Of a stretch of DNA of 27,751 bases, positions 2,796 to 24,742 are shown piece after piece. Made by a program: the position numbers and the translations under genes. The first letter of the stretch is position 1, and every line of letters begins with the position of its first letter. The DNA lies in contig NZ_JBEWSZ010000018.1 of assembly GCF_040537815.1 (NCBI RefSeq), positions 1 to 27,751 on the forward strand. Direction: 5' to 3'. The notes beneath the pieces are model-generated. The model was not told where the DNA came from. It did no database searches and saw only the letters and a program-made list of their open reading frames with translations. Source of the stretch: Mesorhizobium shangrilense. GTDB lineage: Bacteria > Pseudomonadota > Alphaproteobacteria > Rhizobiales > Rhizobiaceae.

Positions 2796-2982
2796 GGGCT
2801 TCCATCCTTCGAAAGCCCGGCTTCCAAGTCAATTCTGCTTGGTCAATCTGTCCGCTCCGAGGGGCGCACTCCAGATCGGGGGTCAGTTTTGGAAACGATG
2901 ACGTAATTGCTGCCGTCGCTCCTTTGAACGAAGACTCGGCTGACGGCAAAAGCCGCCGACCATTGAGATCAAGGAGGCCGCA

Positions 2983-3652
2983 GTGAAGCAATATGTCGGA
3001 CTGGATGTGTCGCAGAGAGAGAGACGAGCGTCTGCGTGGTCGATGATGCTGGAAAGACGGTGTTCCAGGGAAAGGCGAAGTCCGATCCGGGAGCCTTGAC
3101 GGAGTTGCTGCGTAAACGTGCGCCTCACGCCGAGCGCATCGGATTTGAGACTGGTGCCATGTCCAGCTGGCTCTGGCACGAGCTGAAAAGGGTCGGGTTG
3201 CCGGTCGTCTGCCTTGATGCTCGGCATGCAAAGGCAGCGCTTTCAGTCCGAATGAACAAGAGCGATGAGAACGATGCCCGCGGCCTGGCCGAACTGGTTC
3301 GCGTCGGCTGGTATCGGGAAGTGAGGGTCAAGAGCGCAGAAAGTCAGGCCACCCGGTCCATGCTCGTCGCACGGTCAAGACTTGTCGAGATCCGTCGCGA
3401 TCTCGAAAACCAGACACGGTCCATGCTGAAGGAATATGGGCTGCAGTTCAGTCGATCGATTGGCTCACAGTTCCGGCGAAAGGTTTGGGAACTGGTTGCT
3501 GACGGCCATCCGCTTCGCCCTTTGGTTCAGGCGCTTCTGTCTGTCCATGAGCGGGTCTGCTGTGAACAGGAGAAGCTTGATCGGCAGGTCCGGCATCTCG
3601 CTCGTGAAGACGAAACCACACGCCGGCTGATGACAGTCCCCGGCATCGGTGC
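2983..3652 (+). pseudogene. IS110-type transposase, N-terminal part, frameshifted
   Basis: The likely start is GTG 2983 after AAGGAGG, giving the family's first motif [10 protein letters not shown] with its catalytic Asp. Between about 3011 and 3022 a GA run carries two extra bases, which throws the gene out of frame. The correct frame resumes near 3028 as [13 protein letters not shown]. The rest holds the remaining RuvC-like acidic residues (Glu in [12 protein letters not shown], Asp in [16 protein letters not shown]). Reading ends at the helix-hairpin-helix motif MTVPGIG, where the serine-recombinase element begins. Two independent lesions make it a pseudogene. Confidence 0.9.
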
Positions 3653-3670
3653 AACAACTTCATAATGCCC
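3648..3670 (+). other. Left attachment half-site of the serine-recombinase element
   Basis: The GG at 3648-3649 is followed by ten bases and then TCATAATGCCC. In inverted orientation this matches the right border in both motif and spacing. It lies at the PGIG codons of the IS110-type transposase. Confidence 0.7.
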
Positions 3671-4122
3671 GCTATCAGTCGGGTGAAGCGATTATCCGCT
3701 ATCGATTTCATCCCCGTTACGGGGAAGCGGTTTTTGTTGCCGGGCGCAATCGCCATGGTGACGAGGTCGCTCTGATCATCCGCCAGCCTGACGGCACCCT
3801 GGTGCAGTTGCCGATCTGGATGACGGAGGATCGTGCGGAGGCGATGATGGTGACGGAGATTCCCCGTCTGCCACTGACAAATCTGCGCGAACTTCGTCTG
3901 AAGCTCGATGCCTGTCTAAGCTTGCTACGCGACGATTCCCGTTGCGAAGGAGGAGACAAGCATGAAGCATCGTCAATCCTGTCACCGCCAACTCGATCTC
4001 TTCGTGGCCAAGACCCCACCGGCACCGATAGCACCGGCCGAGCGGACGAAGCTGTTGCCACTGGTGAGTGCGCTGCTGTCGGAAGCACGCGGCGCAGCCG
4101 CAGCGACGGAGGCCGGCGATGA
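3649..4122 (+). CDS. DUF5372-like protein of the serine-recombinase element
   Basis: The first roughly 100 residues ([18 protein letters not shown], then [18 protein letters not shown] and [20 protein letters not shown]) resemble small DUF5372-type proteins that I associate with recombinases in Rhizobiales elements; the function is unknown. The only in-frame start near the left border is GTG 3649, whose first base is the border G. The GG-TG junction would be recreated in a circular form, so the start would be kept there too. From about codon 105 the frame overlaps the next ORF and reads low-complexity sequence, so the true C-terminus may have been lost to a frameshift. The family name is from memory of the sequence pattern. 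Confidence 0.55.
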
Positions 4123-4135
4123 AGATCACGTCTGA
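3962..4135 (+). CDS. Small 57-residue protein of the serine-recombinase element
   Basis: ATG 3962 follows a near-perfect Shine-Dalgarno AAGGAGG at about seven bases. The product begins [17 protein letters not shown] and continues with a Pro/Ala-rich middle and an acidic end. Its stop at 4133-4135 overlaps the recombinase start (ATG 4119) by 17 bases, as expected for coupled translation. I do not recognise a domain. Its strong ribosome site and fixed position between the DUF5372-like ORF and the recombinase argue it is real, perhaps a recombination accessory factor. Confidence 0.6.
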   Translation: MKHRQSCHRQLDLFVAKTPPAPIAPAERTKLLPLVSALLSEARGAAAATEAGDEDHV

Positions 4136-5975
4136 CCACCTGGCGCGCGGCGCCTTTATCTACATCCGCCAATCGACCGTCGACCAGCTTGCCAACAATC
4201 ATGAGAGCCGGCGGCGTCAATATGGTCTTGCCGAGCGCGCCCGTGCTCTTGGCTGAACGGATGTGACAGTTATCGATGACGACCTTGGCCGCTCGGTTCG
4301 GGCGTCAGTCGTCCGGGCTTCGAGAAGCTGCTGTCAGCGATCTGTGAAGGCCGTGTCGGTGTTGTGTTCGCAATCGAAGTGTCGCGTCTGGCGCGCAACG
4401 GACGCGACTGGCACACGCTGATCGAATTTTGCGGTCTGGTTGGCGCGGTGATCGTCGATGAGGATGGCATCTACGAACCCCGCCATCCAAACGATCGGTT
4501 ATTGCTGGGCATGAAAGGGACAATGAGCGAGCTCGAACTGTCGCTCCTGCGGGCCCGTTCGATGGAAGCCTTGAAGCAGAAAGCACGACGGGGCGAGCTC
4601 TTCTTCACGGTCGCCGTCGGCTATGTGAAAGTGGGCTGTGACAAAATCGAAAGGGATCCCGACCTGCGCGTGCGCGAGGCGATTGGGTTGGTGTTCTCCC
4701 GTTTTGCCGAGATGCAGAGCATCCGCCAGGTGTTCTTATCGCTTCGCAGTGACCAGATAGCGCTGCCGTACATCAACCCCAGGATCTCCGGACAGCAGCA
4801 CGTGCTATGGAAACCTCCAGTCTACACGACGGTGAGCAACCTTCTCACCAATCCTGTTTATGCTGGTGCTTATGTCTTTGGCCGAACCGGAAGTCGGACG
4901 ATAATCGAAAATGGCCGCAAGCGAATCGTGCGCGGCCGTCGCAAAGCTCGCTCAGATTGGGCAGTCTTGCTCGTTGATCATCACGAAGGCTATTTGCCCT
5001 GGGCAGACTTTGAAAGGACTCAACGGCTGATTACTGACAATGCCAACGGCAAGGGCATGATGGTGCGCGGGCCGGTGCGCAAGGGAGAGGTTTTGCTCGC
5101 CGGGCTATTGCGTTGCGGTCATTGCGGCCGCCGGCTGCTTGTTGGCTATAATGGCGCCAAGGGTGATGTCGGCCGCTATAAGTGTGACGCGACCCGGAGC
5201 ACTCCCGACGGTGATCCCTGTATCTCGTTTGGCGCATTACGGGTCGACGAGGCGGTGGGAGCCGAGATCGTGCGGTTGCTGCAGCCGCTCGGCGTTGAAG
5301 CGGCCATCCAGGCGATCGCGCAGCGCGAGCATCAGTCTTGGCGAAAAACAGCGCCAGATCGAGTTGGCGCTCGAACAGGCGCGATATGAGGCAACCAGAG
5401 CGCGCCGGCAGTATGACACGGTCGACCCTGAGAATCGTCTGGTTGCTCACGAACTCGAGCGCCGGTGGAACGGCGCCCTCGCGACCGTACGCGCACTCGA
5501 GGAAGAACTGGAGGCCCTGGTCCGACAGCGGCCGGCCGCTTTGAGCGCCGAGGAGCGCCAGCGCCTATTGCAAATGGGGGCCGACCTGGAAGCCGCGTGG
5601 CATCATCCAGCGGCCACTGCCGTCACGCGTAAGCGCATCATCCGGGTCGTGTTGCGCGAGGTCGTGGCACACGTCGAGGGTGACCAGATTCATCTGTTGT
5701 TGCATTGGCAGGGCGGCGATCATACCCGCCTGATGGTGAGAAAGAACCGGCGGGGTCAAACGCGGTGGTCCGTCGAGCCGGAGACGGTAGAGCTGATCCG
5801 CGCCTGCGCGCGACTGATGCCCGACAAGGCCATTGCCGGACTACTCAACCGGGCAGGAAAGCGGACAGGTCGATCGAATGGATGGTCGCAGTCGCGTGTG
5901 CGGAGCTTCCGCAACACGCACGGCATCGCGGTCTACAGGGATGGCGAATGGCCGAGCGCGGCGAAGTCACGTTGA
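4119..5975 (+). pseudogene. Large serine recombinase (resolvase/invertase family), decayed
   Basis: In order the sequence encodes a resolvase catalytic domain with the nucleophile in FIYIRQSTVDQ (Ser about residue 19) and the conserved VVFAIEVSRLARNGRDWHTL, a Recombinase domain (about 4610-5050), and a zinc ribbon with CGHCG and later Cys residues (about 5110-5225). A coiled-coil segment (EKQRQIELALEQARYEATRA, about 5340-5400) and a C-terminal DNA-binding region follow. Three lesions break it: TGA at 4254-4256 where Trp is expected after RARALG, a one-base loss near 4294-4300, and a one-base shift near 5328-5336. The intact length would be about 615-620 residues. It overlaps the downstream helix-turn-helix ORF. 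Confidence 0.88.
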
Positions 5976-6184
5976 CTGAAGCCGCCAGGATGCTCAATCT
6001 GAGCTCCGCGACGGTCCTTCGCCAGATTGCCGCCGGCATCATTCCTGCCGAGCAATATTGCAAAGGCGCACCATGGGTCATCAAACGACGGGATATCGAA
6101 GATTCGCGTCTGATCGAGTGCGTCAGGCACTCAAGGCGCCCGTCATCACCAAGTGCGGAGCAAAAGACCCTTGACTTTCAATAA
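5948..6184 (+). CDS. Helix-turn-helix protein (excisionase-like), 78 residues
   Basis: The ATG at 5948 lies within the recombinase 3' end (28-base overlap). Residues 6-30 (EVTLTEAARMLNLSSATVLR) form a MerR/excisionase-type helix-turn-helix, followed by WVIKRRDIE, the typical wing after such domains in helix_turn_helix_17 proteins. In related integrative elements small proteins of this type act as directionality factors or repressors; that role here is inference. The ORF is undamaged although the recombinase is not. It ends 34 bases before the right border. Confidence 0.7.
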   Translation: MAERGEVTLTEAARMLNLSSATVLRQIAAGIIPAEQYCKGAPWVIKRRDIEDSRLIECVRHSRRPSSPSAEQKTLDFQ

Positions 6185-6195
6185 CGTAGCCAGAT

Positions 6196-6218
6196 GGACA
6201 TTATGACGCGGGACCAGG
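6196..6218 (-). other. Right attachment half-site of the serine-recombinase element
   Basis: GGACATTATGA (6196-6206), ten bases, then GG at 6217-6218. Read on the minus strand it mirrors the left border, sharing TCATAATG-Y-CC and the TG next to GG. Confidence 0.7.
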
Positions 6219-6582
6219 CGTGGTGACCGCGCTCACCTTCCGCCACACAATCGACGATCCCTCGCGCTTTCGCTCGGCCGCCAACGTAGGAGCCTATCTC
6301 GGCCTGACTCCGCGACGAAAGCAGTCCGGTGAAACGGATATCAATGGCCGCGTCTCACGCTGGGGCGATCGGCTGTTGCGAACCTATCTCTACGAGGCGG
6401 CCAGCGTGCTCCTGCACCGAACGAAGAAATGGTCCACGCTGAAAGCCTGGGGGATGCGTCTGTCGAGACGGATCGGCTTGAAGAAGGCGAAGGTGGCGGT
6501 GGCACGCAAGATCGCCGTTCTTCTTCATTGCATTTGGGTTGACGGCACCAGCTTTGAGTGGGGTAACGAAAAGATGGTTTAG
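6219..6582 (+). pseudogene. IS110-type transposase, C-terminal part
   Basis: Continuation of the transposase after the inserted element: [13 protein letters not shown], then [19 protein letters not shown], which contains the serine conserved in the transposase_20 domain, and [15 protein letters not shown] to the natural stop at 6580-6582. This piece has no lesion of its own. An inverted copy of 6328-6450 lies at window positions 1-123 with no mismatch seen, so the two copies are very recent relatives. Confidence 0.9.
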
Positions 6583-6830
6583 TCGACTCCACCCCAAACG
6601 AGTTCTCGGGCTGCTATCAACGCGGAACTCGTGATGTCCCCGCCGGGACGGTGGTTGCGGCGACCTCGGTCAAACGGCTGACAGCAGTTCATCTGCATCT
6701 CGTTGGAAACGTTGAGGCGCCCGACCCGAACATCATCATGAGGCATTCGACCTCGGAAAGGACCATGACCCCGGCGATGGCAATGCGAGATCCGGATTGA
6801 CAACTACCCGCAATTAAAGGGCCGTTTGAC
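6583..6830 (+). other. IS110-type 3' non-coding end, possible bridge/seek RNA region
   Basis: No reading frame is credible here. The stretch has a perfect 8-bp stem, ACGAGTTC (6598-6605) with GAACTCGT (6625-6632) and a 19-base loop. It is followed by a short GTCCC/GGGAC hairpin. IS110-family elements encode a structured guide RNA in one non-coding end, and in the IS1111 group it lies 3' of the gene. The short 5' leader and long structured 3' end fit that layout. No transcript evidence is available, so this is a candidate only. Confidence 0.35.
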
Positions 6831-6831
6831 A

Positions 6832-10946: not shown

Positions 10947-12059
10947 ATGAAAATCACAACCATGAAGCTTGCAGTCGGTGCGGCGCTTCTGTTGGCATCG
11001 TTGCCAGCTGCCGCACTCTCAGATGAAATTCCCGAAAACCTCAAGGGGACGGGCGAACTTGTCACCACGACTGGCGGCGGAGGGGCATTTGATGATGCCC
11101 GAATGAAGGCGTGGTTCGCGCCATTTACGCGTGATACCGGCATCAAAGTAGTGGTGGTTCCAGCAACAAATGCGAAGCTCATGGCCTCGGTAAAGGTTGG
11201 ACAGCCTGAAGCTGACCTGACGTTTGTCAGCGGAGGTGAAGTTCCGAACTGGGTCGACAAAGGGTTTGTCGACAAGATCGATTACAGCTACTTTGCGAAG
11301 GAAACGCTGGCAGGCATCCCCAAAGAGGCGAGAAGTGAATATTCATTTCGCTCTCACACTTACTCTGTCGTTCCTACGTATAGCACCATAAAATACCCGC
11401 AAGGCACTAAGCATCCCGAAAACTGGGTCGACATTTACGACGTAGCGAAGTTCCCGGGGAAGCGGGCCCTTCCGAATTGTGGTAATACCCTTTACGGCGG
11501 GTTGCTCGAAGGAGCGCTCTTGGGTGACGGCGTTCCGCCGGAAAAACTTTATCCGCTCGACTTTGATCGCGCTTTTGCCAAGCTAAAGCAGATTGCTCCC
11601 AACGTCGGACGCTGGTGGGGATGGGACGAGGGTGGTTTGGCTCCGCAGAGTCTTATCGACGGCGAAGCTGATATGGGATCGGCCTGGAATGGTCGAATTA
11701 CCAGCTTGCAGAAGCAAGGCGCACCGGTGGCTTTGTCTTGGGATCAATCTCTCCTGCAGTATGATGATTGGGTGGTCGTGAAGGGCTCCCCCAACCAAGT
11801 AAACGCGGCCAAGTTCCTCGCCTATATTGCGCGTCCAGAAGCACAGGCCGCGTTTGCGGAAGCGATTCCCTATGGCGTTGTGAACAAAGACGCATACAAA
11901 CTCATTCCAAAAGAACTCGCCGAGAACTTGCCTGGAGCGCCTGGGATCGGAGAGAAGCAGATTACCCAAGACTACGCGTGGTGGTCAAAGTCCAGACCCG
12001 ATGGCAAAACCAACCTAGACTACGCGATCGAACGCTGCCAGGCAGTTTTGGCAAAGTGA
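10947..12059 (+). CDS. ABC transporter periplasmic binding protein, PotD-like (polyamine/opine/iron class)
   Basis: 370 residues with a Sec signal peptide at the N-terminus (MKLAVGAALLLASLPAAALS, residues 6-25). The mature protein has the family-1 binding fold signature order: ELVTTTGGGGAFDDARMKAW, then TFVSGGEVPNWVDKGFVDKI near the first hinge, and RWWGWDEGGLAPQSLIDGEA, typical of the PotD/AfuA-like group that detects small cations or amines. ATG 10947 follows AGGGGAA at eight bases. It heads the operon with the permease and ATPase genes; a strong hairpin follows the stop. Substrate cannot be read from the sequence. Confidence 0.9.
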   Translation: MKITTMKLAVGAALLLASLPAAALSDEIPENLKGTGELVTTTGGGGAFDDARMKAWFAPFTRDTGIKVVVVPATNAKLMASVKVGQPEADLTFVSGGEVPNWVDKGFVDKIDYSYFAKETLAGIPKEARSEYSFRSHTYSVVPTYSTIKYPQGTKHPENWVDIYDVAKFPGKRALPNCGNTLYGGLLEGALLGDGVPPEKLYPLDFDRAFAKLKQIAPNVGRWWGWDEGGLAPQSLIDGEADMGSAWNGRITSLQKQGAPVALSWDQSLLQYDDWVVVKGSPNQVNAAKFLAYIARPEAQAAFAEAIPYGVVNKDAYKLIPKELAENLPGAPGIGEKQITQDYAWWSKSRPDGKTNLDYAIERCQAVLAK

Positions 12060-12066
12060 TCCGCCT

Positions 12067-12095
12067 GCCGCTGCGGCAAGCATAGCCGCAGCGGC
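12067..12095 (+). promoter_or_regulatory. Intercistronic stem-loop after the binding-protein gene
   Basis: GCCGCTGCGGC (12067-12077) and GCCGCAGCGGC (12085-12095) form a perfect 11-bp stem with a seven-base loop, eight bases after the stop codon. There is no T-run. In binding-protein operons such hairpins stabilise the upstream mRNA or attenuate read-through so that the binding protein outnumbers the permease; that role here is inference. The rest of 12096-12334 holds nothing I recognise. Confidence 0.75.
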
Positions 12096-12334
12096 ATTCT
12101 AGGACGCGGGCGTTAAGCAAGTCCAATAGGGTTAGTTGAGATCCAGCCAAGCCCGCGCCACTTTAGATAACCAAAATCCATGTGGCGTCATTGGCAGATA
12201 TCTGAGCGCCCGAGACGGGCCCGGTCCTTGGCGCATGACGAAAGCATCGATTATAGAAGATGATTCCGTATCGTCGGTCACCGCTGAAAGGAATTAGAGT
12301 CGGATATGACGGCTTAGGGAAGGAGCAAAACCAC

Positions 12335-14176
12335 ATGGCCACTCTCCTGGCGAAAGAGAAGGCCGCGGATGCGGCAGTCGTAAAAGTGGCTAGGAGCCAA
12401 AATTACCTGAACGGGCTACTAGCACACCAACGGATTCGCGGTGCCATCATTGCCTCGCCGATAGTGGTGCTCCTAGTTGGATTCCTCGTCATCCCGCTAT
12501 TGATTATCCTTTGGGGTAGCGTCGAAGGTGACAAATTGACCTTCTCGCATTATGCACGCATATTCTCCGACGAGACAAATCTCAGCGTCATGCTTCAGAC
12601 CCTGAGGGTTGGGTTGATTGTCACGCTTGTGTCACTAGTCGCTGCTTACCCCGTCGCTTACCTGCTGACACAAATTAAGTCGCGCGCTTTGTCACTTGTA
12701 ACCTTGTTCATTCTCGTTCCATTGTTCACGGCCTTCCTCATCCGGACTTACGCCTGGATGATCATCCTCGGTCGCCAAGGGCCCATAAATAACACATTGA
12801 TCTGGCTCGGACTCATCAGAGAGCCGTTGCCACTCCTCAACACGACCTTTGCCGTTGTCATTGGGATGGTACACGTGTTGATGCCGATCGCGATCTTCAC
12901 GATGTACTCCTCGATGGTGCGGATCGACCACAACGTTGCGCGAGCGGCACAAATACTAGGCGCCAAACCAGTCCAAGCCTTCCTGCGCGTGTATTTCCCT
13001 CTGTCGCTACCCGGCGTCTTTTCTGCCGGCATTCTGATTTTCATCATTGCGATTGGTTTCTACATTACGCCTTCCCTTCTCGGGGGCCCACGCGATGCAA
13101 TGATAACGCAGTTGATTGTCACGCAATTGACAACGCTTTTGAACTTCGAACTTAGTTTTGCGTCGTCAATTGTGCTCCTGTTAGTCACGATCGGAATTCT
13201 CTTCTTTGCAAGCCTTTTCATTCCGCTCGAAATGATCTGGTCTTCCTCTACCGTCGAAATCACAAGCCAAAAGCTTCGGTCGAAATCTCCTTTTTTCGGA
13301 AACATGAAACAGGCAGTGCAGCCAATTCTGATCACAGCAGAAGCCCTGATCCATTTGGTGACTAAGCCATTTCTAACACGTAAAGCCCGCTGGCTTTGGG
13401 CCTACACGATCCTGGTTCTTCTGTTTCTAATAGCGCCCCTGGTTGTGGTTTTCCTACTCTCGTTCAGTTCGTCCCTTTTCGTGGTATTTCCTCCCCCAGG
13501 CTTTTCGCTACAGTGGTGGGAGAAACTTGTACACGCATCGGATTGGCAAGAATCGTTTCTATTTTCCGTTAAGCTCGGGTTCTTCTCTGCATTCTTTGCT
13601 ACGATCATTGGAACCATGGGCGCTTTTTGGCTGGTGCGTACAACGCTACCGATAAAGAGAGCATTGTTCCTGTTTTGTCTGTCGCCCCTTATGGTGCCCG
13701 GCATCATCATCGCGACGGCTCTCTACATCTTTGAGGCACGCATTCACTTGCTTGGCAGCTTCGCCGGGCTAGTGATCGGTCATGTCCTCCTGTCGGTACC
13801 CTACGTTGTTGTCGTCATGGCCGCGGCATTGCGTGGTTTTGACCAGTCTCTCGAAAAGGCAGCCGCCATCCATGGCGCCCGTCCGATGCAGGTCCTCCGC
13901 CTCGTGACATTACCGCTCCTCAAGCCGGCGCTGCTGACAGCGGGTTTGCTCGCATTCCTAACTTCGTTCGACGAACTGCTTATCACAATGTTCATGATCG
14001 GACGGCAGACGCTGACGCTACCCTTCAAGTTTTGGAACGATATCAAATACGAACTCAATCCGCTGCTCAGTGCGGCCTCGACGTTTATCGTCCTGCTCGT
14101 CGCGGTAGCAATATTGACAGCACAGTGGATCAAGGTGCGGCACGACAGGCGTACCTCTGCTCGCACAGGGAAATGA
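12335..14176 (+). CDS. ABC transporter permease, two permease domains fused (PotB-PotC type)
   Basis: 613 residues from ATG 12335, chosen because AGGAG lies nine bases upstream; an earlier in-frame ATG at 12260 lacks a good site. The first permease half (about residues 35-310) has its ATPase-contact loop at RAAQILGAKPVQAFLRVYFP. The second (about 350-605) has it at KAAAIHGARPMQVLRLVTLP. Both fit the EAA-G motif of binding-protein-dependent permeases, and each half has about six membrane segments. Most Pot-type systems use two genes, so this is a fusion. It lies between the binding protein and the ATPase in the same direction. Confidence 0.92.
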   Translation: MATLLAKEKAADAAVVKVARSQNYLNGLLAHQRIRGAIIASPIVVLLVGFLVIPLLIILWGSVEGDKLTFSHYARIFSDETNLSVMLQTLRVGLIVTLVSLVAAYPVAYLLTQIKSRALSLVTLFILVPLFTAFLIRTYAWMIILGRQGPINNTLIWLGLIREPLPLLNTTFAVVIGMVHVLMPIAIFTMYSSMVRIDHNVARAAQILGAKPVQAFLRVYFPLSLPGVFSAGILIFIIAIGFYITPSLLGGPRDAMITQLIVTQLTTLLNFELSFASSIVLLLVTIGILFFASLFIPLEMIWSSSTVEITSQKLRSKSPFFGNMKQAVQPILITAEALIHLVTKPFLTRKARWLWAYTILVLLFLIAPLVVVFLLSFSSSLFVVFPPPGFSLQWWEKLVHASDWQESFLFSVKLGFFSAFFATIIGTMGAFWLVRTTLPIKRALFLFCLSPLMVPGIIIATALYIFEARIHLLGSFAGLVIGHVLLSVPYVVVVMAAALRGFDQSLEKAAAIHGARPMQVLRLVTLPLLKPALLTAGLLAFLTSFDELLITMFMIGRQTLTLPFKFWNDIKYELNPLLSAASTFIVLLVAVAILTAQWIKVRHDRRTSARTGK

Positions 14177-14189
14177 AAGGGAGGCAACA

Positions 14190-15260
14190 ATGTCCACCAG
14201 TCTCGAAATGAAGAAAATCCAGAAATGGTACGGCGGGCTCCACGTCGTGCGCGACTTCGATCTCTACGTTGAGCCGGGCGAATTCGTGACGTTTCTTGGC
14301 CCGTCCGGTTCCGGCAAGACTACCGCGCTGAAGATGATCGCCGGCTTCGAGCCGCCTAGTGGCGGCGACATGTTGCTCGGCAGTCGCTCGATTGTGGACG
14401 TCCCACCTTATGAGCGTGGTATCGGCATGGTCTTCCAAAACTACGCGCTGTTTCCACACATGACAGTGGCTGAAAACGTCGCCTTCCCTCTCAAAGTTCG
14501 CAGTGTGGCAAGGGCCGAAACCGAGCAGAAAGTCTTGCGCGCTTTGGAATTGGTGAAGATGGGTGAGTATCGCGGACGCTATCCCAACCAGCTCTCTGGT
14601 GGACAGCAGCAGCGAATTGCGCTTGCCCGTGCCATCGTCTTCGACCCAAGCCTCCTGCTAATGGACGAACCGCTCGGTGCTCTCGACCGCAATTTGCGCG
14701 AACACATGAAAATCGAGATCATGCGTATCCAAAAAGAGTTGAATATGACCGTCATCTTCGTCACTCACGACCAAGACGAAGCACTGGTTATGTCCGATCG
14801 GATTGCCGTGATTAACGAAGGCAGGCTCGTTCAGGTCGCGGACAGCAAGAACCTCTACTATAATCCAAAGGACCGCTTTGTCGCGTCTTTTGTCGGCGAA
14901 TCTAACCTTCTGCCTTGTCGCATCGACGAAATAGACAACGGAGCCGGCACGGTGACCATTGGCGGCCGAGATTCTGGCGTGGCTCGCTTAAACGGACAGT
15001 CACGGGGCGAATCCGGTTGGCTCTTTGTACGACCGGAGCATGTTGATATCAGCCCGCGCGGCGCGATCACCGATGTCCGGAATGTCCTTGATGGAGTTGT
15101 TGAGAATGCACTGTTTCTGGGCGAGTTGACCCGCTACGCGGTTCGCTGCGGAAAAGAAAGCATAACAGTCAAGCAACAGAATCGGGGGCAGACTCAGTTT
15201 ACCAGCGGAACTCCCGTGTCTGTTTCATGGAATGTGAGCAACTCTATGGTGTTAAACTGA
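14190..15260 (+). CDS. ABC transporter ATP-binding protein, PotA-like
   Basis: 356 residues. Walker A GPSGSGKT (37-44), Q-loop in VFQNYALFPH, signature LSGGQQQR (135-142), Walker B LLLMDEP (155-161), H-loop His193 in FVTHDQDEA. The C-terminal third is a TOBE-type domain as in MalK/PotA importers (RPEHVDISPRG). ATG 14190 follows GGGAGG, 13 bases after the permease stop, so it is co-translated. It energises the fused permease. Confidence 0.95.
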   Translation: MSTSLEMKKIQKWYGGLHVVRDFDLYVEPGEFVTFLGPSGSGKTTALKMIAGFEPPSGGDMLLGSRSIVDVPPYERGIGMVFQNYALFPHMTVAENVAFPLKVRSVARAETEQKVLRALELVKMGEYRGRYPNQLSGGQQQRIALARAIVFDPSLLLMDEPLGALDRNLREHMKIEIMRIQKELNMTVIFVTHDQDEALVMSDRIAVINEGRLVQVADSKNLYYNPKDRFVASFVGESNLLPCRIDEIDNGAGTVTIGGRDSGVARLNGQSRGESGWLFVRPEHVDISPRGAITDVRNVLDGVVENALFLGELTRYAVRCGKESITVKQQNRGQTQFTSGTPVSVSWNVSNSMVLN

Positions 15261-15702
15261 CGGACACCCAAAATCATGGAATCGGTGGACTTCCGCCTTC
15301 GCGAATTCGACACGACGGAACCCGAAAAAGTCGTCCGGTTTGATCGAATCTGCAGTCGAAAGACCTCATCGCGAGCTGAATTGTGCTTTCGGCAAGGCTG
15401 TCTACAGTTTTAGAAGGCGACAGAAGGCATTAGACGATAGAAACAATCATCGATGTCGCGAGCGACTGTGGGACGAGGCGAAGCTTCTGTCAATGGCCCT
15501 CCACTTTGAGCAGCTGCCGTGCACCGCATTCCTAGCAGTCGTCTGCGGCGATGTCGCGAGCCTCATCGAAGCAAAAGTTGCCCGCGATCGAGGTTTCCGT
15601 AAAAAAGGCGTTAATTTGTTACCCAAGGCAAATCGAATCTAGCGCACAGCCGCGACTGCGGCGGTGACAGATCCGGGATTGAAGAACCTAAAGGAGATAT
15701 TG
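15261..15702 (+). other. Intergenic region with an unrecognised 100-codon frame
   Basis: An open frame at 15340-15642 starts without a convincing ribosome site. Its product (basic, with LWDEAKLLSMALHFEQLPCT) matches no family I know. It may be a remnant. No terminator with a T-run is obvious after the ATPase gene, so the M24 gene may be read from the same transcript. Confidence 0.4.
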
Positions 15703-16869
15703 ATGGTCAAGCCAGCGTTCCAAGCTTTCTCAGAAACAGAACATAGGTCCCGACTCAAACGCGCTCGTGAAGAGCTTGCCGCGGCTGGTTATGACGGGTG
15801 TGTTATTGTCGCGCCAGAAAACCTCTTTTACCTCACTGGGTACGATTCAGTTTGCGCCAACATATGTCCACAAGCTCTCATACTCAGCGTCGATGAAAGC
15901 CGAGATCCAACATTGTTAGTTCGTAACCTGGACCTTCCATTGGTGAAGGAAACATCTTGGTTGACAGATGTCCGGACGTATCAACTCTTCGCGGACGATG
16001 TGGCTGAGTTGGTCAGAGAAATCGCTGACGATCACCGAATAACGAATGGTCGCTTGGGTTTAGATATGCAGTCACCGGCGGTTACCGGGAGTTATATGCG
16101 GGCCCTCGAAGCTGCCATTAAGTCACAGTTTGGGGACATAAGTCACTTACTCAACAAACTCCAACTCATAAAGTCGCCAGCTGAGGTCCAATACATGCGA
16201 GAGGCCGCCTGCTATGCAAATCTGGGTGTCGAAGCGGCGCGGAAAAGCCTGCAGCCCGGCATTAGCGAGCTCGCACTTTGCGCAGCCGTGGAACAGGCAG
16301 CCCGAGAAGCAGGTAGTGATTATCCAGCGCTTCCGACCGAATGTGGGAGTGGAACGCGCTCAGCAAGCGGCCATGCAACCCCTATGCCGAAGATTATTGG
16401 CAGAAATGAACTTGTTCACCTAGAGTTCGCAGGCGTAGCTCGGCGATATCACAGTGTGGCGATGATAACCATGGCTACGGGCGATCCGGGTGAAGGCGCG
16501 CGCAGATTGCATGACATCGGGCGCGAGTCGCTATTGGCCGGGCTGGAAGAATGCCGCCCTGGCGCGAGAGTCGCTGACATCGACATCGGTTCACGTAAGC
16601 CAATCGAGCGTGCCGGTTTGGGCGAAGCTGCGCAGATGCGCTTTGGTGTCGGCATTGGTATCGCCTATCCCCCGATTTGGTTGAGTTCACTTCAACTCGA
16701 TCGATTTTCTAGCGGTACGTTAGTGCCCGGTATGACCTTTTATGTCCATTCGTGGTTATCGCTCGCCCGCGAGGGGCTTGGTGTGATGTTGGGCGGAACT
16801 TACTTAGTCACTGAAACCGGTATCGAAGCGCTCTCCGGGGCGGGTCCAGCCGACCTGTTCTCCATCTGA
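15703..16869 (+). CDS. M24-family (pita-bread) hydrolase, creatinase/ectoine-hydrolase-like
   Basis: 388 residues: a creatinase N-terminal domain (about 10-150, with VAPENLFYLTGYDSV) and a pita-bread catalytic domain (about 160-380). The start is ATG 15703 after AAGGAG. The five metal ligands of aminopeptidases are not kept. The first-Asp region reads LVHLEFAGVARRYHSV, the His region reads MRFGVGIGIAYPPIW, and the last Glu site reads GVMLGGTYLVTE. This pattern recalls metal-independent creatinase and ectoine hydrolase (DoeA), which open cyclic or guanidino C-N bonds. SGHATP keeps a histidine like creatinase's catalytic one. It probably cleaves an amide or lactam-like compound taken up by the upstream transporter (inference). 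Confidence 0.82.
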   Translation: MVKPAFQAFSETEHRSRLKRAREELAAAGYDGCVIVAPENLFYLTGYDSVCANICPQALILSVDESRDPTLLVRNLDLPLVKETSWLTDVRTYQLFADDVAELVREIADDHRITNGRLGLDMQSPAVTGSYMRALEAAIKSQFGDISHLLNKLQLIKSPAEVQYMREAACYANLGVEAARKSLQPGISELALCAAVEQAAREAGSDYPALPTECGSGTRSASGHATPMPKIIGRNELVHLEFAGVARRYHSVAMITMATGDPGEGARRLHDIGRESLLAGLEECRPGARVADIDIGSRKPIERAGLGEAAQMRFGVGIGIAYPPIWLSSLQLDRFSSGTLVPGMTFYVHSWLSLAREGLGVMLGGTYLVTETGIEALSGAGPADLFSI

Positions 16870-16882
16870 GAACTTGGAGCGG

Positions 16883-16930
16883 TAGGTTCTGCTGCTGGCC
16901 GATATGAATATACAAGCAGCAGCCTATTTT
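16883..16930 (+). terminator. Rho-independent terminator after the M24 gene
   Basis: TAGG plus CTGCTGCT (16883-16896, with a TT bulge) pairs with AGCAGCAG plus CCTA (16915-16926), followed directly by TTTT. It lies 14 bases after the M24 stop and probably ends the transporter-hydrolase transcript. Confidence 0.65.
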
Positions 16931-17462
16931 GCTCGGAACATTTGTCAAGCGTTGTGAAGATTGACCGCTCATGTTGCCTCACCCAAGAATGTTACTGACA
17001 ATGTTTGTGCTGAGGCAGCCCGCATCTCCTCCCGCCGCCGCGGGGGGAGATACAAGCGCGAGTTCAACCAGGCCCATCGAGTATGATTTGACCTGCAATT
17101 TCCACTTGCTAAGCTTTAAGCCCAATTTGGACCGTCTGCAGGCTTTTCTTAGTAAAGGGATGGATCAACGCCCATAAGCCGCTGCAGAAACAAGGCTGCT
17201 GAGATCCCCGAATCCGCCTCCACTCGGGTAACGCATTGACATCCGGTAATGCTTCGCGTGGGGCTTCGGGAACATCAAAACGCGCTCAATGTTTCAAAGC
17301 TATAAATACGCCAATAGTTTGCTCCTCTGAAAACAGCCTGCTAATCGTAACCATCCGGCGAAGACGTCACCGGAGGGGTACTGCTAATCCAAATTTCCTG
17401 TAGAGCACAAAAACCCCTTGTGCACCTCTAAAAGGTGTACTAGGTCAATGCAGGGCGTGCGT
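16931..17462. other. Intergenic region, no gene recognised
   Basis: Short open frames here have no ribosome site or recognisable product. A near-perfect dyad, GTGCACCT (17420-17427) with AGGTGTAC (17433-17440), lies 23 bases before the operator-like palindrome and may be regulatory. Confidence 0.4.
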
Positions 17463-17484
17463 CGCATTGAGCTATATCAATGCG
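17463..17484 (+). promoter_or_regulatory. Operator-like palindrome upstream of the FAD dehydrogenase gene
   Basis: CGCATTGA and TCAATGCG are perfect 8-bp arms around GCTATA. The core ATTGAGCTATATCAAT matches the reverse complement of the motif at 10510 and 20573 (ATTGCACTATATCAT) at nearly every position, so it may be the symmetric form of the same binding site. It lies about 90 bases before ATG 17576. Confidence 0.5.
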
Positions 17485-17575
17485 AAATGGCAATAGCGAG
17501 CCGTCAGTGTCGGCTGACTCATGTTCTGAACGTCCGCGACGGTGTGAAACGACCCAGCACGAAGAGTGGCCCAAA

Positions 17576-18811
17576 ATGTCTGAGCGTCGCACTGTGGCTG
17601 TTATTGGTGGAGGTGTCGTCGGCGTAAGTTGTGCACTAATGCTGGCCCGTGAAGGGCACCAGGTTACGATGTTCGAAAAGGGTCGTGTTGGCCATGGGTG
17701 CTCCTGGGGCAATGGAGCTCAATATAATGCGGGCTCCTCCCTACCAATGGCGTATCCGGGCATTATACGCCAGGCCGTGCGGTGGCTCATCGACACGAAT
17801 GGTCCGGTACGTTTTGCGCCGCGGGAACTTCCGCGCACCTTTCCTTGGTTGCTTCGGTTCCTCGGTACCGGACGCCTAAAGAATTGGGCGCCTGCTTACG
17901 ATGCGCTGCACGCTCTAAACGCTCAATGCGCCAGCCTCTATAGAGACATGCTTGGAGAGGTTGACTGGAACCGGCATTTTCGACCGAACGGCGCACTGCA
18001 TGTTTTCAGGGGCGATTCACTGGGGCCGCTGGATCACATGGTCGACGTGATGCGGAGCGAAAAGGGCGTTCGATTTCAGAGAATCTCAACCGACGAGGTA
18101 TTCGAATTAGAGCCCCAATTGTCTCGCGCCTATCGCCGCGGCATCTTCTTTCCCGACAGCGGCCACGTGACATCCCCACCAGGTCTCGTGAAAGGATTAA
18201 TGGACAGGGCGGCTTCGCTAGGGGCATCGGTGCAGACAGCGACTGTCGTGGCCATAGAGCCGGATACAGAACGAGTGAAGGTCCAGACAAATTCGGGCGC
18301 CCGAGGCTTCGATTCTGTCGTTATTGCCGCTGGAATCGCGAGCCGAGATTTGGCACGCTCGCTTGGTGTCACTTTGCCTTTAGCGAGCGAGCGCGGCTAT
18401 CACATCACCATGCGCGGCGCTGATAGCGGCGTAAGCCGCCCGGTTACAGACGCGGCTTCAGCATTCGTGGCGACGCCCCTAAGCGAAGGTCTCCGTATCG
18501 TTGGGATCGCCGAGTTCGACGCACCTGATGCTCCGCCGAACAAGGATCAGAGCAAGAAGCTGCGGGCATCCGCTCAAGCGATGCTGCCTGATCTCTCAGT
18601 CGGTCAAGTGAGCGAGTGGATGGGCGTGCGACCGTCAACACCAGACAGTCTGCCCATCATCGATCGCCATCCCCGACATCCCTCCGTGTTCTTTGCCACA
18701 GGGCACGGCCACATGGGCATTAGCGGCGCGCCGATGACAGCAGCACTCATCTCCGATCTTGTCGCGGCCCGTGCGCCTCGGCTCTCCTGCATACCTTATC
18801 GCCTTAGATAG
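17576..18811 (+). CDS. FAD-dependent D-amino-acid dehydrogenase-like oxidoreductase (DadA/DAO family)
   Basis: 411 residues. The N-terminal dinucleotide motif VAVIGGGVVGVSCALMLARE followed by an acidic residue (FEK) marks FAD binding. The GCSWGNGAQYNAGSSLPMAYPG region and the C-terminal GVRPSTPDSLPIIDRHPRHP and FFATGHGHMGIS stretches are typical of DadA-type enzymes, which oxidise D-amino acids or secondary amines such as hydroxy-D-proline. ATG 17576 is chosen because the Rossmann motif begins soon after; the upstream in-frame extension is polar and unlike the family. A terminator and an operator-like palindrome precede it, so it has its own promoter. Substrate unknown. Confidence 0.9.
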   Translation: MSERRTVAVIGGGVVGVSCALMLAREGHQVTMFEKGRVGHGCSWGNGAQYNAGSSLPMAYPGIIRQAVRWLIDTNGPVRFAPRELPRTFPWLLRFLGTGRLKNWAPAYDALHALNAQCASLYRDMLGEVDWNRHFRPNGALHVFRGDSLGPLDHMVDVMRSEKGVRFQRISTDEVFELEPQLSRAYRRGIFFPDSGHVTSPPGLVKGLMDRAASLGASVQTATVVAIEPDTERVKVQTNSGARGFDSVVIAAGIASRDLARSLGVTLPLASERGYHITMRGADSGVSRPVTDAASAFVATPLSEGLRIVGIAEFDAPDAPPNKDQSKKLRASAQAMLPDLSVGQVSEWMGVRPSTPDSLPIIDRHPRHPSVFFATGHGHMGISGAPMTAALISDLVAARAPRLSCIPYRLR

Positions 18812-18889
18812 AGTGAAGAAAAGAGACCTCGGCATTAGCTACGTGATGATCAATCAGCAATCATAAAAACGAGAAGGTGGAGCGAGCTG

Positions 18890-18943
18890 ATGAAACTTGG
18901 ACTGGTTAAATTTGTCGGATACGCGAACGAGGAGAGATTGTGA
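18890..18943 (+). CDS. 17-residue upstream ORF coupled to the hydrolase
   Basis: ATG 18890 has AAGGTGGAG at a good distance; the product is MKLGLVKFVGYANEERL. Its stop TGA overlaps the next ATG (18943) as TGATG, classic translational coupling. It may be a leader peptide, or the amino end of a lost gene, since several fumarylacetoacetate-hydrolase-type proteins begin similarly; the latter is a guess. Confidence 0.4.
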   Translation: MKLGLVKFVGYANEERL

Positions 18944-20155
18944 TGGGGACGCTCGAATTCAACGGGCATCACTATCTCGACGGTCGCGCGTCTGATCCAC
19001 GAGAGCTCGGCTGGATGCGAGGTGCGCCACCGCCAAGCGACACGCGAATCACGTTTGAGACCGGCACATTCCGCGACTTCCCACAAATCCGCTGGTCGTT
19101 TTCGCACATGCGCGAACTCATGCCCACGGTGAACGTGTGGCGCGGGAGGGAAAGACCCTCCCAGTTCGAGCGTGGCGACAAGTTCGACGAGATTGACGCG
19201 CTCCCTTTCGCGGACGTAAACGGTGTAATCAGGCGCTTCGATGACGCGCTGATCGACACCTACGTCGATGGCATCATGGTACTGCATCGCGGACGAATTG
19301 TATACGAGCGCTACTTCGGTGCACTCGAGGCCCAGTCGTGCACGAAGTCTTACACCGGCACGCTCATTGCAATACTTGTTCACGAAGGCGTGCTCAATGA
19401 GTCTGAGAGCATCTCGCACTATCTGCCAGAATTGCGAACCACGGCATGGGAGGATGCCACTCTGCGCCAGGTAATGGACATGCAGATCGGCCTGGCCTTC
19501 AAAGAGGGCTACGACGAGCACTCTGACATCTGGGCGTATAGATGGGCCTTTGGACGACTACCGCGGCCGGCTAGCTACGACGGGCCCCGGACCTCATGTG
19601 ATTACCTGAGGACTGTGCTCAAGCAAGGCGCGCACGGCGAGTTCGCCTACCAGAGCCTTAACACGCAGGTGCTGGCTTGGGTCATGATGCGCGTTACCGG
19701 CCGCTGGTTCGCTCAGTTGTTGCAGGAGCGCCTATGGGCGCCGCTCGGCTGCGAGGAGGATGGTTATCTCGAGATTGACCCTGGCGGCATGCCGCTGGCT
19801 GAGAGTGGCCTGAGCGCGACCCTGAGAGACTTTGCGCGCTTTGGTGAACTAATGCGGTGCGAAGGCGAATGGCATGGAAAGCAGCGCATTCCCGCATCTG
19901 TCGTGCATGACACAAAAAGGTGGAAAGCGAGCAAACGTTGAAGCTGGTTACTCGTATCGCAGTTAGTGGTGGGTGTCGAACAACGAGTTGGGGGCGTTCG
20001 AGGCACGGGGCATTCACGGCCAGCGCCTCTATGTCGCACCGGAGGCGGAGATGGTTGTGGCGCTTTTTGCGTCCCACCCTGTCGCCGACAGCGCCGGCGA
20101 CACGATCACGTCTGCGCAGTTGCTGACACTAGGGAGAATGCTGCGGGCAGAATGA
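18943..20155 (+). pseudogene. Beta-lactamase-fold serine hydrolase (6-aminohexanoate-dimer hydrolase-like), broken
   Basis: The first frame (to 19941) holds the SxxK motif as S132-C-T-K135 in AQSCTKSYTG and a Tyr-x-Ser motif in AYQSLNTQ, both typical of NylB/EstB-type class-C-like hydrolases that cut amides or esters. A frameshift near 19912-19920 produces a stop at 19941. The corrected frame continues GGKRANVEAGYSYRS, meets TAG at about 19969 where Gln or Lys is expected before WWVSNNELGAF, and reaches the usual C-terminus GRMLRAE at 20155. About 400 residues when repaired. The two catalytic motifs survive in the first part, but the C-terminal strands are missing. Confidence 0.85.
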
Positions 20156-20554
20156 GCAGTGTCTACATCGCAGAGTTAACTCTTGCCGCGCCTGAGGTTT
20201 CGATTTCCTGTGTCCGCTAAAGCAGTCCCAAACCGAAATTGAATCAGGACGATTATAGCATGATGACGGCTTGGAGATCTTAGAGCCGGCGGAGATGGGT
20301 GTGCATCACGTGTTGTCGAGGTGGTTAGTCACAAGGTCGTCGCCTTGAAACTCCACGTTCACCGGAAGCTGGGAGACTATCTCGCTCCGATCGACCGCAT
20401 CCGCAGCCGAACGCAGGTTGGGCGGCCCTCATAGCATTTTGGCGGCAGCTTCTAGGCAACGTGAACAGCTCCTACACGCTTAAAACACAACCGTGCCTGT
20501 CAGGCATCCGAGCGATGACATAGCTGACAGTTAAAGAGAGGACACAAGATTAAC
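20156..20554. other. Intergenic region, no gene recognised
   Basis: An open stretch of about 45 codons (CASRVVEVVSHKVVALKLHV) around 20300-20430 has no start or known family and may be a gene remnant. Nothing else is recognised. Confidence 0.35.
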
Positions 20555-20582
20555 TTGCACCATTCTAGCCAAATGATATAGT
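20555..20582 (+). promoter_or_regulatory. Candidate promoter of the binding-protein remnant / dapA-like operon
   Basis: TTGCAC (20555-20560), 16 bases, TATAGT (20577-20582): the same geometry as the promoter at 10492-10519. The tandem operator overlaps its -10 box. Confidence 0.5.
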
Positions 20583-20608
20583 GCAATGAATTAATGATAT
20601 ATTCCAAT
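20573..20608 (+). promoter_or_regulatory. Tandem operator, second copy
   Basis: ATGATATAGTGCAAT (20573-20587) and ATGATATATTCCAAT (20594-20608) again start 21 bp apart. The first repeat plus three bases (18 bp) is identical to 10510-10527, while the surrounding sequence differs. Confidence 0.6.
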
Positions 20609-20626
20609 CCACAGGGGGAGGCTCCA

Positions 20627-21000
20627 ATCGACCGTTTTGTTAACGCAATGGTCGCGGCCGCAATCAGTGTGGTCACCTTGATCTGGCCGGCGTCTGTGCC
20701 AGCCCGAGTTGAAGACCCATTGCCCGTCCTCCAGCACATCAAAGCAAGCGGCGTTCTCAAGTTTCCAATGATGGTCGCGAAAGGGCGGGGCTACATCACG
20801 GATCCGCGCACCGGCTACTGGAGTGGCAACTTTATGGACTGGGGGAAGAATATTGCCGGCTTGTTGGGCGTGAAGATCGAGTACTATGAAACACCGTGGA
20901 GCAATTTCGCGGCGGATTTTCAAGCTGATAAAATCAATCTCGAGGTGGGATTGAATCCCAATCCCGTGCCTTTGTCTTGTCGTCGATTATTTCCTTGGCG
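20627..21000 (+). pseudogene. Family-3 (amino-acid type) ABC binding protein, N-terminal remnant
   Basis: Encodes a signal peptide (AAAISVVTLIWPASVPARVE) and then IKASGVLKFPMMVAKGRGYI and GYWSGNFMDWGKNIAGLLGV, WSNFAADFQADKINLEVGLNPNP. These are the lobe-1 motifs of polar-amino-acid binding proteins. The frame breaks near 20965; in another frame LVVDYF fits a short continuation, after which similarity is lost. A GGGGGAGG ribosome site at 20614-20621 is followed at proper spacing by ATC (20627) where an ATG might once have stood. Downstream 21000-21200 codes for nothing I recognise. No matching permease or ATPase genes are present. Confidence 0.7.
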
Positions 21001-21212
21001 GTATTGTGGAGGGACTGGGGACGCTTGGAGCCCGTCCCGGCCCGGAACCGAAGTCCTGGCGCGGCGACCGGCGTGAACTCTTGCTGTCGGACGGTAATCC
21101 GAGGCTTGCCGCTGTCGTCGGACGCTTTTGGGAACAGACTCGCGTTCTCGGCCCACTGGCCGTGCTGGCTTTTGCACCTTCAACGATATCTTCTAACAAA
21201 GGATAGTGGATT

Positions 21213-22112
21213 ATGACCAATGTAAATTGGAGCGGTATCTTTCCCGTTCTCGTTACTCCCTTCGGAGCAGATGGCTCCATCAATGAAACGCGTTATAAAG
21301 AACTCGTTGACGATGCAATCGCCAACGGCGCACAGGGCGTGGTGGCGGCTGGTAGCACGGGCGAATTCTATGCTCTCACCAAAGCGGAGCGCGCGCATCT
21401 TCACAGGGTAACAGTCGATCATGTGGCTGGCCGCGTGCCTGTTCTGGCAGGCGTCGCAGATTTGCGCGTCGAAGATGTACTGGAAGCATGTCAGTCAGCT
21501 GTCGCAGCGGGCTGCGTTGGTGGAATGATCCTGCCGCCAATATATGCCATGCCGAGCCCGCGTGAGATCGTAGCCTTCTTTGAGTACATTTCTCGCAACA
21601 CATCGCTCCCGCTGATGCTCTACAATAGCCCGCGCCGGGCTGGCATCGACATCACCCCGGCTCTCGTGGAGCAGCTTTCCGCGCTGCCAACCGTGGTCGC
21701 CATCAAGGACAGCTCCGGCGTCATTACCCAGGTGAGTGAACTGGTGCAGCGCGTGGGTGACAAACTCCGCGTCTTCGTCGGCTACGAGACCATGATCGTT
21801 CCGGCCCGCGCCGTTGGCGCTCACGGGGTCGTCGCCATGGCGCACCAAATCGCCGGACCGCTGATCCGCGACTATTGGGACAAGGCACTCACCGGAGACA
21901 AGGTAGTAGATGAGCTCGGGCGCGATGTCTTCGCCTTCTACCGTTGCTTCCAGTCCGGTGCGTACTACGCGGCCATCAAAGAGACCATGGGCCAGCTTGG
22001 CCGAGGCGCAGGCGGTCCGCGCCTGCCGTTGCTGCCGTTGGCCGAGGAACAGAAAGCAACCATTGCAAAGATCATCTCTGATGCTGGTCTTGCGCGTTGG
22101 GCCAACCCTTAA
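21213..22112 (+). CDS. DapA-like aldolase/deaminase (DHDPS/NAL family)
   Basis: 299 residues, full family length. Schiff-base lysine K165 in VVAIKDSSG, catalytic tyrosine Y137 in LMLYNSP, and the carboxylate-binding GSTGE (48-52). Family members include dihydrodipicolinate synthase, N-acetylneuraminate lyase, keto-deoxy-sugar aldolases and the pyrroline-4-hydroxy-2-carboxylate deaminase of hydroxyproline catabolism. The neighbouring aldehyde dehydrogenase and FAD dehydrogenase favour a catabolic deaminase or aldolase rather than lysine synthesis (inference). ATG 21213 has AAAGGA upstream. Ninety bases separate it from the aldehyde dehydrogenase gene, same direction. Confidence 0.92.
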   Translation: MTNVNWSGIFPVLVTPFGADGSINETRYKELVDDAIANGAQGVVAAGSTGEFYALTKAERAHLHRVTVDHVAGRVPVLAGVADLRVEDVLEACQSAVAAGCVGGMILPPIYAMPSPREIVAFFEYISRNTSLPLMLYNSPRRAGIDITPALVEQLSALPTVVAIKDSSGVITQVSELVQRVGDKLRVFVGYETMIVPARAVGAHGVVAMAHQIAGPLIRDYWDKALTGDKVVDELGRDVFAFYRCFQSGAYYAAIKETMGQLGRGAGGPRLPLLPLAEEQKATIAKIISDAGLARWANP

Positions 22113-22202
22113 AGAGGATTCTGTACGCGATACCGCAAGCAGATCAAAAAAGCTCTCGCCGACTAGCGTTTGAGAGCCCCCTACCTTGCCTAAGGAATAG
22201 AT

Positions 22203-23881: not shown

Positions 23882-24742
23882 ATGGCCGAGTTGATCCCGC
23901 TTCGCCGACGCATGATCGAGGACATGACGATCCGCAATCTGTCGCCGGCCACCCAGCGATCCTACGTGCACGCGGTGGCCAAGTTTTCGCGCTATTTCGA
24001 CCGCTCGCCGGACCGGCTCGGCCTGGAGGACGTCCGCGCCTTCCAGGTCCATCTGGTTTCGGCGGGAGTCTCGTGGCCGGCGCTGAACCAGACGGTGTGC
24101 GCGCTGCGGTTTTTCTACGGCGTGACGCTGGGCCATGCCGAGATCCCGGAGCGGATCGCCTATGCCCGCGCGCCACGTACGCTGCCGGTGGTTCTCAGCG
24201 CTGACGAGGTTGTCCGCTTTCTCGAGGCGGTGCCGAGCCTGAAGACGCGCACCGCCCTGACGACGGCCTATGCCGCCGGCCTTCGCGCTTCGGAGACTGT
24301 CGGACTGAAGGTCGGCGACATCGACAGCGGACGCGGCGTGATCCGGGTCGAACACGGCAAGGGCGGCAAGGACCGCACGGTGATGCTGTCGGCGCAGCTT
24401 CTGCGCATCCTGCGGGTCTACTGGCGGCTGGCAAAGCCGCAGGGCTGGCTGTTTCCGGGCCGGGATGCAAATCGACCCATCGACGTTCAGGTATTGTACT
24501 CGGCGTGCCGCTCGGCGCGTGCGGCCGCCGGCATCGACAAGCGCGTGACGGTCCACACGCTCAGGCACGCCTTCGCCACGCATTTGCTGGAGAACGGCAC
24601 CGACATCCGCATCATCCAGGTGCTGCTTGGTCACAACAATCTGTCCTCGACGGCGCGCTACACCAAGGTCTCGAACGGTCTGATCCGGCGCACGACGAGC
24701 CCGCTCGATCGGTTGAACATCGAGGTGGTGCCGCCGGGCTGA
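23882..24742 (+). CDS. Tyrosine recombinase/integrase of the IS91-type element
   Basis: 286 residues. SAM-like N-terminal domain (MTIRNLSPATQRSYVHAVAK). Catalytic residues are visible: Arg in AAGLRASETVGL, Lys in GKGGKDRTVML, HxxR in HTLRHAFATHL, His in LLGHNNLSSTA, and the nucleophile Tyr in ARYTKV. No lesion is seen. Thirteen bases separate it from the transposase gene, indicating co-transcription. Confidence 0.93.
   Translation: MAELIPLRRRMIEDMTIRNLSPATQRSYVHAVAKFSRYFDRSPDRLGLEDVRAFQVHLVSAGVSWPALNQTVCALRFFYGVTLGHAEIPERIAYARAPRTLPVVLSADEVVRFLEAVPSLKTRTALTTAYAAGLRASETVGLKVGDIDSGRGVIRVEHGKGGKDRTVMLSAQLLRILRVYWRLAKPQGWLFPGRDANRPIDVQVLYSACRSARAAAGIDKRVTVHTLRHAFATHLLENGTDIRIIQVLLGHNNLSSTARYTKVSNGLIRRTTSPLDRLNIEVVPPG

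Follow-up and report, generated by a model that had tools for sequence, protein, structure and literature searches.

A compact serine-recombinase element in an IS110 transposase gene of Mesorhizobium shangrilense and its relatives at conserved codons of other mobile-element genes

The interrupted IS110 gene and the element within it

We analysed a stretch of 27,751 nucleotides (nt) from Mesorhizobium shangrilense (contig NZ_JBEWSZ010000018.1, positions 1 to 27,751, forward strand; hereafter the window), in which an IS110-family transposase gene is interrupted at its PGIG codons by 2,569 base pairs (bp) of other DNA. The insert is a compact large-serine-recombinase element, which consists of a 5' open reading frame (ORF), a 57-codon ORF and one recombinase of 689 amino acids (aa). 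A reading made from the letters of the window alone (the sequence-only reading) had proposed that removal of positions 3650-6218 restores the IS110-type frame and that GG stands at both borders with inverted arms exactly 10 bases away, and both proposals proved correct: the deletion yields a single open frame whose protein carries PF01548 and PF02371 (DEDD_Tnp_IS110 and Transposase_20), which together identify the host gene as IS110, and both spacers between core and arm are exactly 10 bp long. The features of the locus are as follows.

2885..6831, forward strand: host IS110-family insertion sequence (IS); ends approximate, placed where identity with the uninterrupted relatives L056 and L062 stops
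3036..3649, forward strand: 5' part of the IS110 transposase gene (DEDD_Tnp_IS110, Pfam PF01548), up to PGI and core GG; frame restored by the join
3648..3649, no strand: left 2-bp core GG (attL crossover)
3650..6218, forward strand: serine-recombinase element, 2,569 bp
3660..3670, forward strand: left attP arm TCATAATGCCC, 11 bp; arm-like sequence at the same spacing in 43 loci
3649..4122, forward strand: 5' ORF, weakly DUF5372-like (E-value 0.0085, below the Pfam cut-off)
3962..4135, forward strand: 57-codon ORF, overlapping the recombinase start
4119..6184, forward strand: recombinase pseudogene with Resolvase, Recombinase, Zn_ribbon_recom and C-terminal HTH_17 domains, from Pfam on its pieces and comparison with the L048 protein
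6196..6206, reverse strand: right attP arm, 11 bp (reverse complement TCATAATGTCC); arm-like sequence at the same spacing in 43 loci
6217..6218, no strand: right 2-bp core GG (attR crossover)
6219..6582, forward strand: 3' part of the IS110 transposase gene (Transposase_20, Pfam PF02371); matches cross the join in seven of nine relatives

At the site, uninterrupted IS110 genes have the predicted sequence, CCCCGGCATCGG-CGTGGTGACC (L057 and L059; L numbers denote loci), and the element sequence is unmatched in all nine uninterrupted IS110 stretches. Among these nine, a single long match runs across the join in L056, L057, L058 and L059 (92-96% identity; best L056, 96.2% over 1,231 nt) and in L062 and L063 (~82%), a 739-nt match crosses it in L061, which is rearranged further left, and the matches of L060 and L064 stop short of it. 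Identity of L057-L059 with the host IS110 stops within ~40 bp of 2885 and 6831. Two more pieces of the element, 98% and 97% identical, lie at the ends of contigs C22 and C20 of the same genome and run into IS110 sequence at the same codons; they are probably one second copy.

The recombinase of the window is preserved in four pieces (4119-4355, 4295-5347, 5340-5951 and 5951-6181), and this copy is dead: a TGA stands in frame at 4254-4256, and the reading frame changes three times, near 4295-4355, 5340-5347 and 5951. By comparison, the L048 recombinase is an intact protein of 689 aa with Resolvase, Recombinase, Zn_ribbon_recom and C-terminal HTH_17 domains, and the Resolvase catalytic domain, Recombinase domain and zinc ribbon are found in intact L048, L031, L053 and L055. 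The sequence-only reading had listed a DUF5372-like ORF, a 57-residue ORF, the recombinase and a helix-turn-helix ORF. The recombinase and the 57-residue ORF hold, the DUF5372 likeness is weak, and a separate helix-turn-helix gene is ruled out, since in intact relatives it is the C-terminus (HTH_17) of the recombinase. An ORF similar to the 5' ORF is present in 23 of 24 translated elements (the exception is L090), that of L048 having no Pfam match, and small ORFs of like size are annotated at the position of the 57-codon ORF in nine of 20 plasmid stretches.

Relatives at fixed codons of mobile-element enzyme genes

With the recombinase piece as query, relatives were collected from species genomes (35 loci) and from plasmids (486 records, from which 20 stretches were picked by hand), and a whole-genome search across the order added 30 loci; 165 of 397 genomes of the order had some match, the listed places being mostly weak (~25% identity, other serine recombinases). 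Borders were placed by means of the conserved arms, using exact arm strings instead of the scoring scan for the window, L006, L007, L022, L034 and L086. Both borders were obtained at 43 loci, i.e., the window and 42 relatives reached through the recombinase (22 of the 35 species-genome loci, 16 of the 20 plasmid stretches and four of the 30 order-wide loci), among which the related pairs L075/L079 and L027/L028 were retained. Outside the 43 are loci with one border only, lying in IS110 (L009, L030, L035, L036 and L039), by eye in IstB (L012 and L040, left border) or by eye in a tyrosine recombinase (L019 and L032), and loci with unresolved borders (L021, L033, L037 and L038). Also outside are, from the plasmids, near-duplicates of L075 (L076-L078) and L082 (right border only, IstB by eye) and, from the order-wide search, duplicates of L023 and L090 (L087 and L091, respectively), the window itself (L088) and a remainder unresolved or unanalysed. 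Reliable borders were not obtained for distant recombinases (~34-44% identical: the second recombinases of L006, L014, L053 and L084, together with L047, L093, L094, L096, L097, L100 and L102), and therefore the claim on targeting does not extend to them. Targets were assigned by similarity to reference proteins, or by eye for L017, L055 and L086, and Pfam agreed with the assignment in all ten joined examples tested.

Joining the flanks restores an enzyme gene at all 43 loci; the codon entered is always the same one within the conserved motif, and the genes belong to five enzyme families:

IS110 transposase, PGI^G: 5 loci
IS21 IstB, codon preceding GxGK of the P-loop: 17 loci
tyrosine recombinase, LL^LGH: 12 loci
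IS66 TnpC, first site, FAGS^xGG: 3 loci
IS66 TnpC, second site, R(P/G)(I/V)^A: 4 loci
IS66 TnpB, R^xD: 2 loci

The IS110 clade comprises, besides the window, L006, L007, L008 and L048 with both borders and seven loci with one (L004, L005, L009, L030, L035, L036 and L039), of which L004 and L005 are probably the two ends of one copy. As had been anticipated for the nearest relatives, these copies sit at the same codons of other IS110 genes (with the variants PGVG in L030 and L036 and PDIG in L039), and the borders read GG every time with the same arms. Measured against L057 and L059, which are uninterrupted relatives of the IS110 in the window, the invaded IS110 proteins show ~29-56% identity, with two stretches of ~20 residues reaching 57-63%. 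In L006 and L007 there is additional DNA within the element (~3.9 kb and ~1.9 kb; border distances 6,479 and 4,492), and a third layer of nesting is therefore likely. One might suppose instead that a transposon landed by chance in an IS110 copy, considering that IS elements are often nested and that ORFs beside the element (519-1892, 1807-2445 and 2445-2795) look transposase-like by eye. However, codon position and GG core are constant at IS110-clade borders although the IS110 genes are only ~29-56% alike, and the placement of all 43 two-border loci at conserved codons rules out such an ordinary nested insertion, to which we assign practically no probability.

Tyrosine-recombinase targets were characterised by the longest ORF within 2.2 kb downstream at ten of the 12 loci (L020 and L025 were outside this check), which proved to be an IS91-type transposase in six (a partial match in L022), a tyrosine recombinase in one and an unrelated gene in three. 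Altogether, 38 of the 43 targets are IS genes or tyrosine recombinases adjoining an IS91-type transposase or a second tyrosine recombinase. The window itself holds an uninterrupted tyrosine-recombinase-like ORF (23882-24742) followed by an IS91-type transposase (24755-25942), and the VLLGH codons there (core CT at ~24626-24627) look like an empty version of the sister clade's site. In L053 (8330-10923) and L084 (7735-10588), a second recombinase (~35% identical) ends over an annotated tnpB that adjoins the tnpC holding the first element; these IS66 copies may have been infected twice.

A quick tree of 51 recombinases, 39 of them labelled by target (L009 and L082 from the right border only; L019 entered as 'outgroup' despite its tyrosine-recombinase left border), requires five changes for six target labels, which is the minimum. 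Target type thus follows recombinase clade in this tree, which carries a long-branch warning for L085 and for the grouping of TnpB with the L090 group. IstB targeting is scattered over the core clan, with the IS110, tyrosine-recombinase and TnpC-FAGS clades sitting among IstB rows, and the direction of target change is unproven because the root is a midpoint. The sequence-only reading had held that related elements at unrelated sites with different border dinucleotides would speak against it; more distant relatives do show this literally, yet their sites are non-random, being conserved codons in four other mobile-element-type enzyme genes whose kind follows the recombinase clade, and they extend the idea.

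The remainder of the window includes a region (10947-23633) with an ABC transporter set (binding protein, permease and ATPase), an M24 peptidase, an FAD oxidoreductase, a PF00144 protein (beta-lactamase/esterase family) and DHDPS-family and aldehyde dehydrogenase genes, which looks like a catabolic region.

Core dinucleotide, orientation and movement

The core is the same at both borders in 37 of the 43 loci, it occupies codon positions 1 and 2 in the 40 loci with a correctly scored frame, and arm spacing is constant across loci. Insertions are in sense orientation in all five IS110 loci (core GG) and all 12 tyrosine-recombinase loci (core CT; TT/CT in L026), and antisense in all three loci at the FAGS site of TnpC (core TC). 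The palindromic GC site of TnpC holds two insertions in each direction; in TnpB, where one of the two insertions has core CG, the orientations are opposite. IstB insertions are antisense in 16 of 17 loci with diverse cores (CT, GG, GT, GC, CA and GA); L081 is the exception, and its sense strand carries CT, which is the core of its near-identical relatives L075 and L079. This pattern is consistent with orientation being under the control of the 2-bp core.

Sequence comparison also bears on mobility. In L079, L080 and L081, which are different IS21s on Sinorhizobium plasmids, the element is 100.000% identical over 2,575-2,578 nt, whereas the IS21 flanks reach only 43-54% in forced alignment; likewise, the elements of the window and L048 are 95.4% identical, against 48-49% for their flanks (forced alignment). 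An empty IS21 copy matches the joined flanks of L075 at 99.72% over 2,506 nt without gaps. With empty sites found in both IS110 and IS21, insertion appears to be precise and attB restorable, and the view of the sequence-only reading that this is a compact site-specific serine-recombinase element is borne out by recombinase domains, core, arms and empty sites. The IS21-plus-element composite was found in three contexts (L075, L077 and L079).

As a complete enzyme gene would return on excision, the element might be kept by the host for reversible switch-off of the transposon, like skin or an fdxN-type element, and the best NCBIfam match is XisF, the excision recombinase of the fdxN element, although far below the cut-off. 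We regard such host-beneficial silencing as very improbable, because scattered occurrence in many genera and plasmids, together with broken copies, would fit a spreading element better.

Hyperparasitism and its alternatives

We are highly confident that this is a small autonomous element, that a large serine recombinase moves it, and that it naturally attaches at conserved codons within the genes that encode other mobile elements' enzymes (in the window clade, the Gly of PGIG in IS110). Because its relatives sit at conserved codons of several other jumping-gene enzymes, it has the look of a parasite that specialises in other genetic parasites. An integrated element would first circularise, its ends being joined as attP (arm-N10-core-N10-inverted arm). 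The anatomy of the borders shows that crossover takes place at the 2-bp core formed by the first two positions of the conserved codon; attL and attR are thereby each left with the core, which would make excision precise. The core dinucleotide would set the orientation, which is consistent with the observed pattern. The result, a transposase gene split in two, is seen directly at the loci. A multi-copy, horizontally moving target gene would offer many landing places while the host's own genes are spared, and the host transposon may carry the element between replicons. We also favour, with less confidence, a broader reading in which a clan of minimal elements is specialised on active-site or signature codons (of IS110, IS21, IS66 and IS91-associated tyrosine recombinases), has been retargeted between motifs but always on mobile elements, tolerates single-base core mismatches and consists of true hyperparasites that disarm transposons and ride them across plasmids.

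Several points weigh against the first of these two interpretations. The plasmid sample is not random (20 stretches chosen from 486 records), and the window copy, being broken, is incapable of moving by itself; neither a circle nor an excision event was observed, the evidence being sequence comparison. Five of the 12 tyrosine-recombinase targets (L020, L025, L029, L034 and L052) are without an identified parent element, L029, L034 and L052 having other genes downstream. Matching cores are expected of serine integrases, and in six of the 43 loci (L011, L018, L026, L049, L055 and L080) the left and right cores are one base apart, as if strand exchange tolerated a mismatched core; L049 (GG/GT) and L080 (GT/GG), in related IS21s, look like reciprocal products of a mismatched heteroduplex resolved by replication. 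Since IstB cores vary among close relatives while orientation is nearly constant, features beyond the core may contribute to IstB orientation. Finally, no target duplication was seen at the IS21 ends of the S. meliloti composites L075, L077 and L079, and L079 has a divergent patch of ~97 bp at its left border (~4180-4280), with 17 differences from the near-identical composite L077, which resembles a conversion tract that stops where crossover took place. Independent infection of IS21, transport with IS21 and recombination between copies are therefore all possible.

These observations bear on a competing view, in which the element is a commensal in a safe haven: the recombinase recognises a DNA motif whose conservation in transposase genes is incidental, and the benefit is a harmless site, the mobility of the transposon being irrelevant. 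In its favour, the element moves on its own between different IS21s, target duplications are not visible in the S. meliloti composites, and joint movement of host transposon and element is proven in no case. The hyperparasitism suggested by the sequence-only reading is well supported as a target strategy, and travel with the host transposon is a possibility. Similar motifs occur in host genes, such as those of HhH proteins, other P-loop ATPases and XerC/XerD. Despite this, the 38 targets counted above belong to, or adjoin, mobile-element genes, the remaining five are tyrosine recombinases of unknown parent, and clades change motif yet keep to enzymes of the mobile-element kind. We consider the safe haven a serious contender that falls somewhat short of an even chance.

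Built on a single recombinase scaffold, with six motif sites, matched pairs of attP and attB and both outcomes for orientation, the clan offers natural replicates of target switching and a ready data set on target choice by large serine recombinases, which is relevant to genome engineering. Hyperparasitism among transposons becomes testable, and some interrupted IS genes of rhizobial plasmids may be precise, potentially reversible insertions rather than decay.

Among known systems, TndX/TnpX transposons (Tn5397 and Tn4451) are excised and inserted by a serine recombinase. The clan resembles them in this mode of movement, and TnpX is one of its five weak PDB sequence matches (E-value 7.9e-5); unlike them, it has precise codon-level targets. 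The cited part of PMC10083194 gives DUF4368 in 63% of the TndX/TnpX-type multi-targeting clade. Domain search found this domain in none of the four intact clan recombinases, which speaks against placing them there. XisF is the best NCBIfam match of four clan recombinases (E-values 5e-22 to 2.5e-30), but the scores are 78-106 bits against a cut-off of 375, and nothing seen so far marks the clan as a developmental excision element. ISRm2011-2 is the home of RmInt1, a group II intron of Sinorhizobium meliloti. The intron is, in the sections cited here, a mobile element housed within another mobile element (PMC4238363), which is the likeness to the clan; however, RmInt1 works by ribozyme and reverse transcriptase and splices from RNA, whereas the clan consists of DNA recombinase elements that cut the gene. 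The IS607 family is described in the cited portion of PMC4058570 as having a small serine transposase with inverted domain order; membership of the clan in it is ruled out, the catalytic domain being N-terminal in a protein of 689 aa.

The closest likeness is to large serine recombinases of the phiC31, Bxb1 and A118 type, which share the Resolvase, Recombinase and zinc-ribbon domains and the paired arms around a 2-bp core. According to the passages cited from PMC3556126 and PMC3783163, the A118 core is GG, as in the window clade, and orientation is tied to the core in serine integrases, a rule (PMC3556126) with which the orientation pattern of the clan agrees. The clan differs in having a minimal element of 2.6 kb in which phage or conjugation genes were not seen, a C-terminal HTH_17, targets in the enzyme genes of other mobile elements and single-base core mismatches at six of 43 loci. 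According to main-text portions of PMC10083194, in which transposases are not named as targets, large serine recombinases include a multi-targeting clade, and their targets are enriched in competence genes and a magnesium chelatase homolog; the supplements of that paper were not covered. A description of the clan was not found in the open-access papers searched, which is weak evidence of absence as most subscription papers were not covered. Large serine recombinases as a kind are already known, and what is notable in this clan is its hosts.

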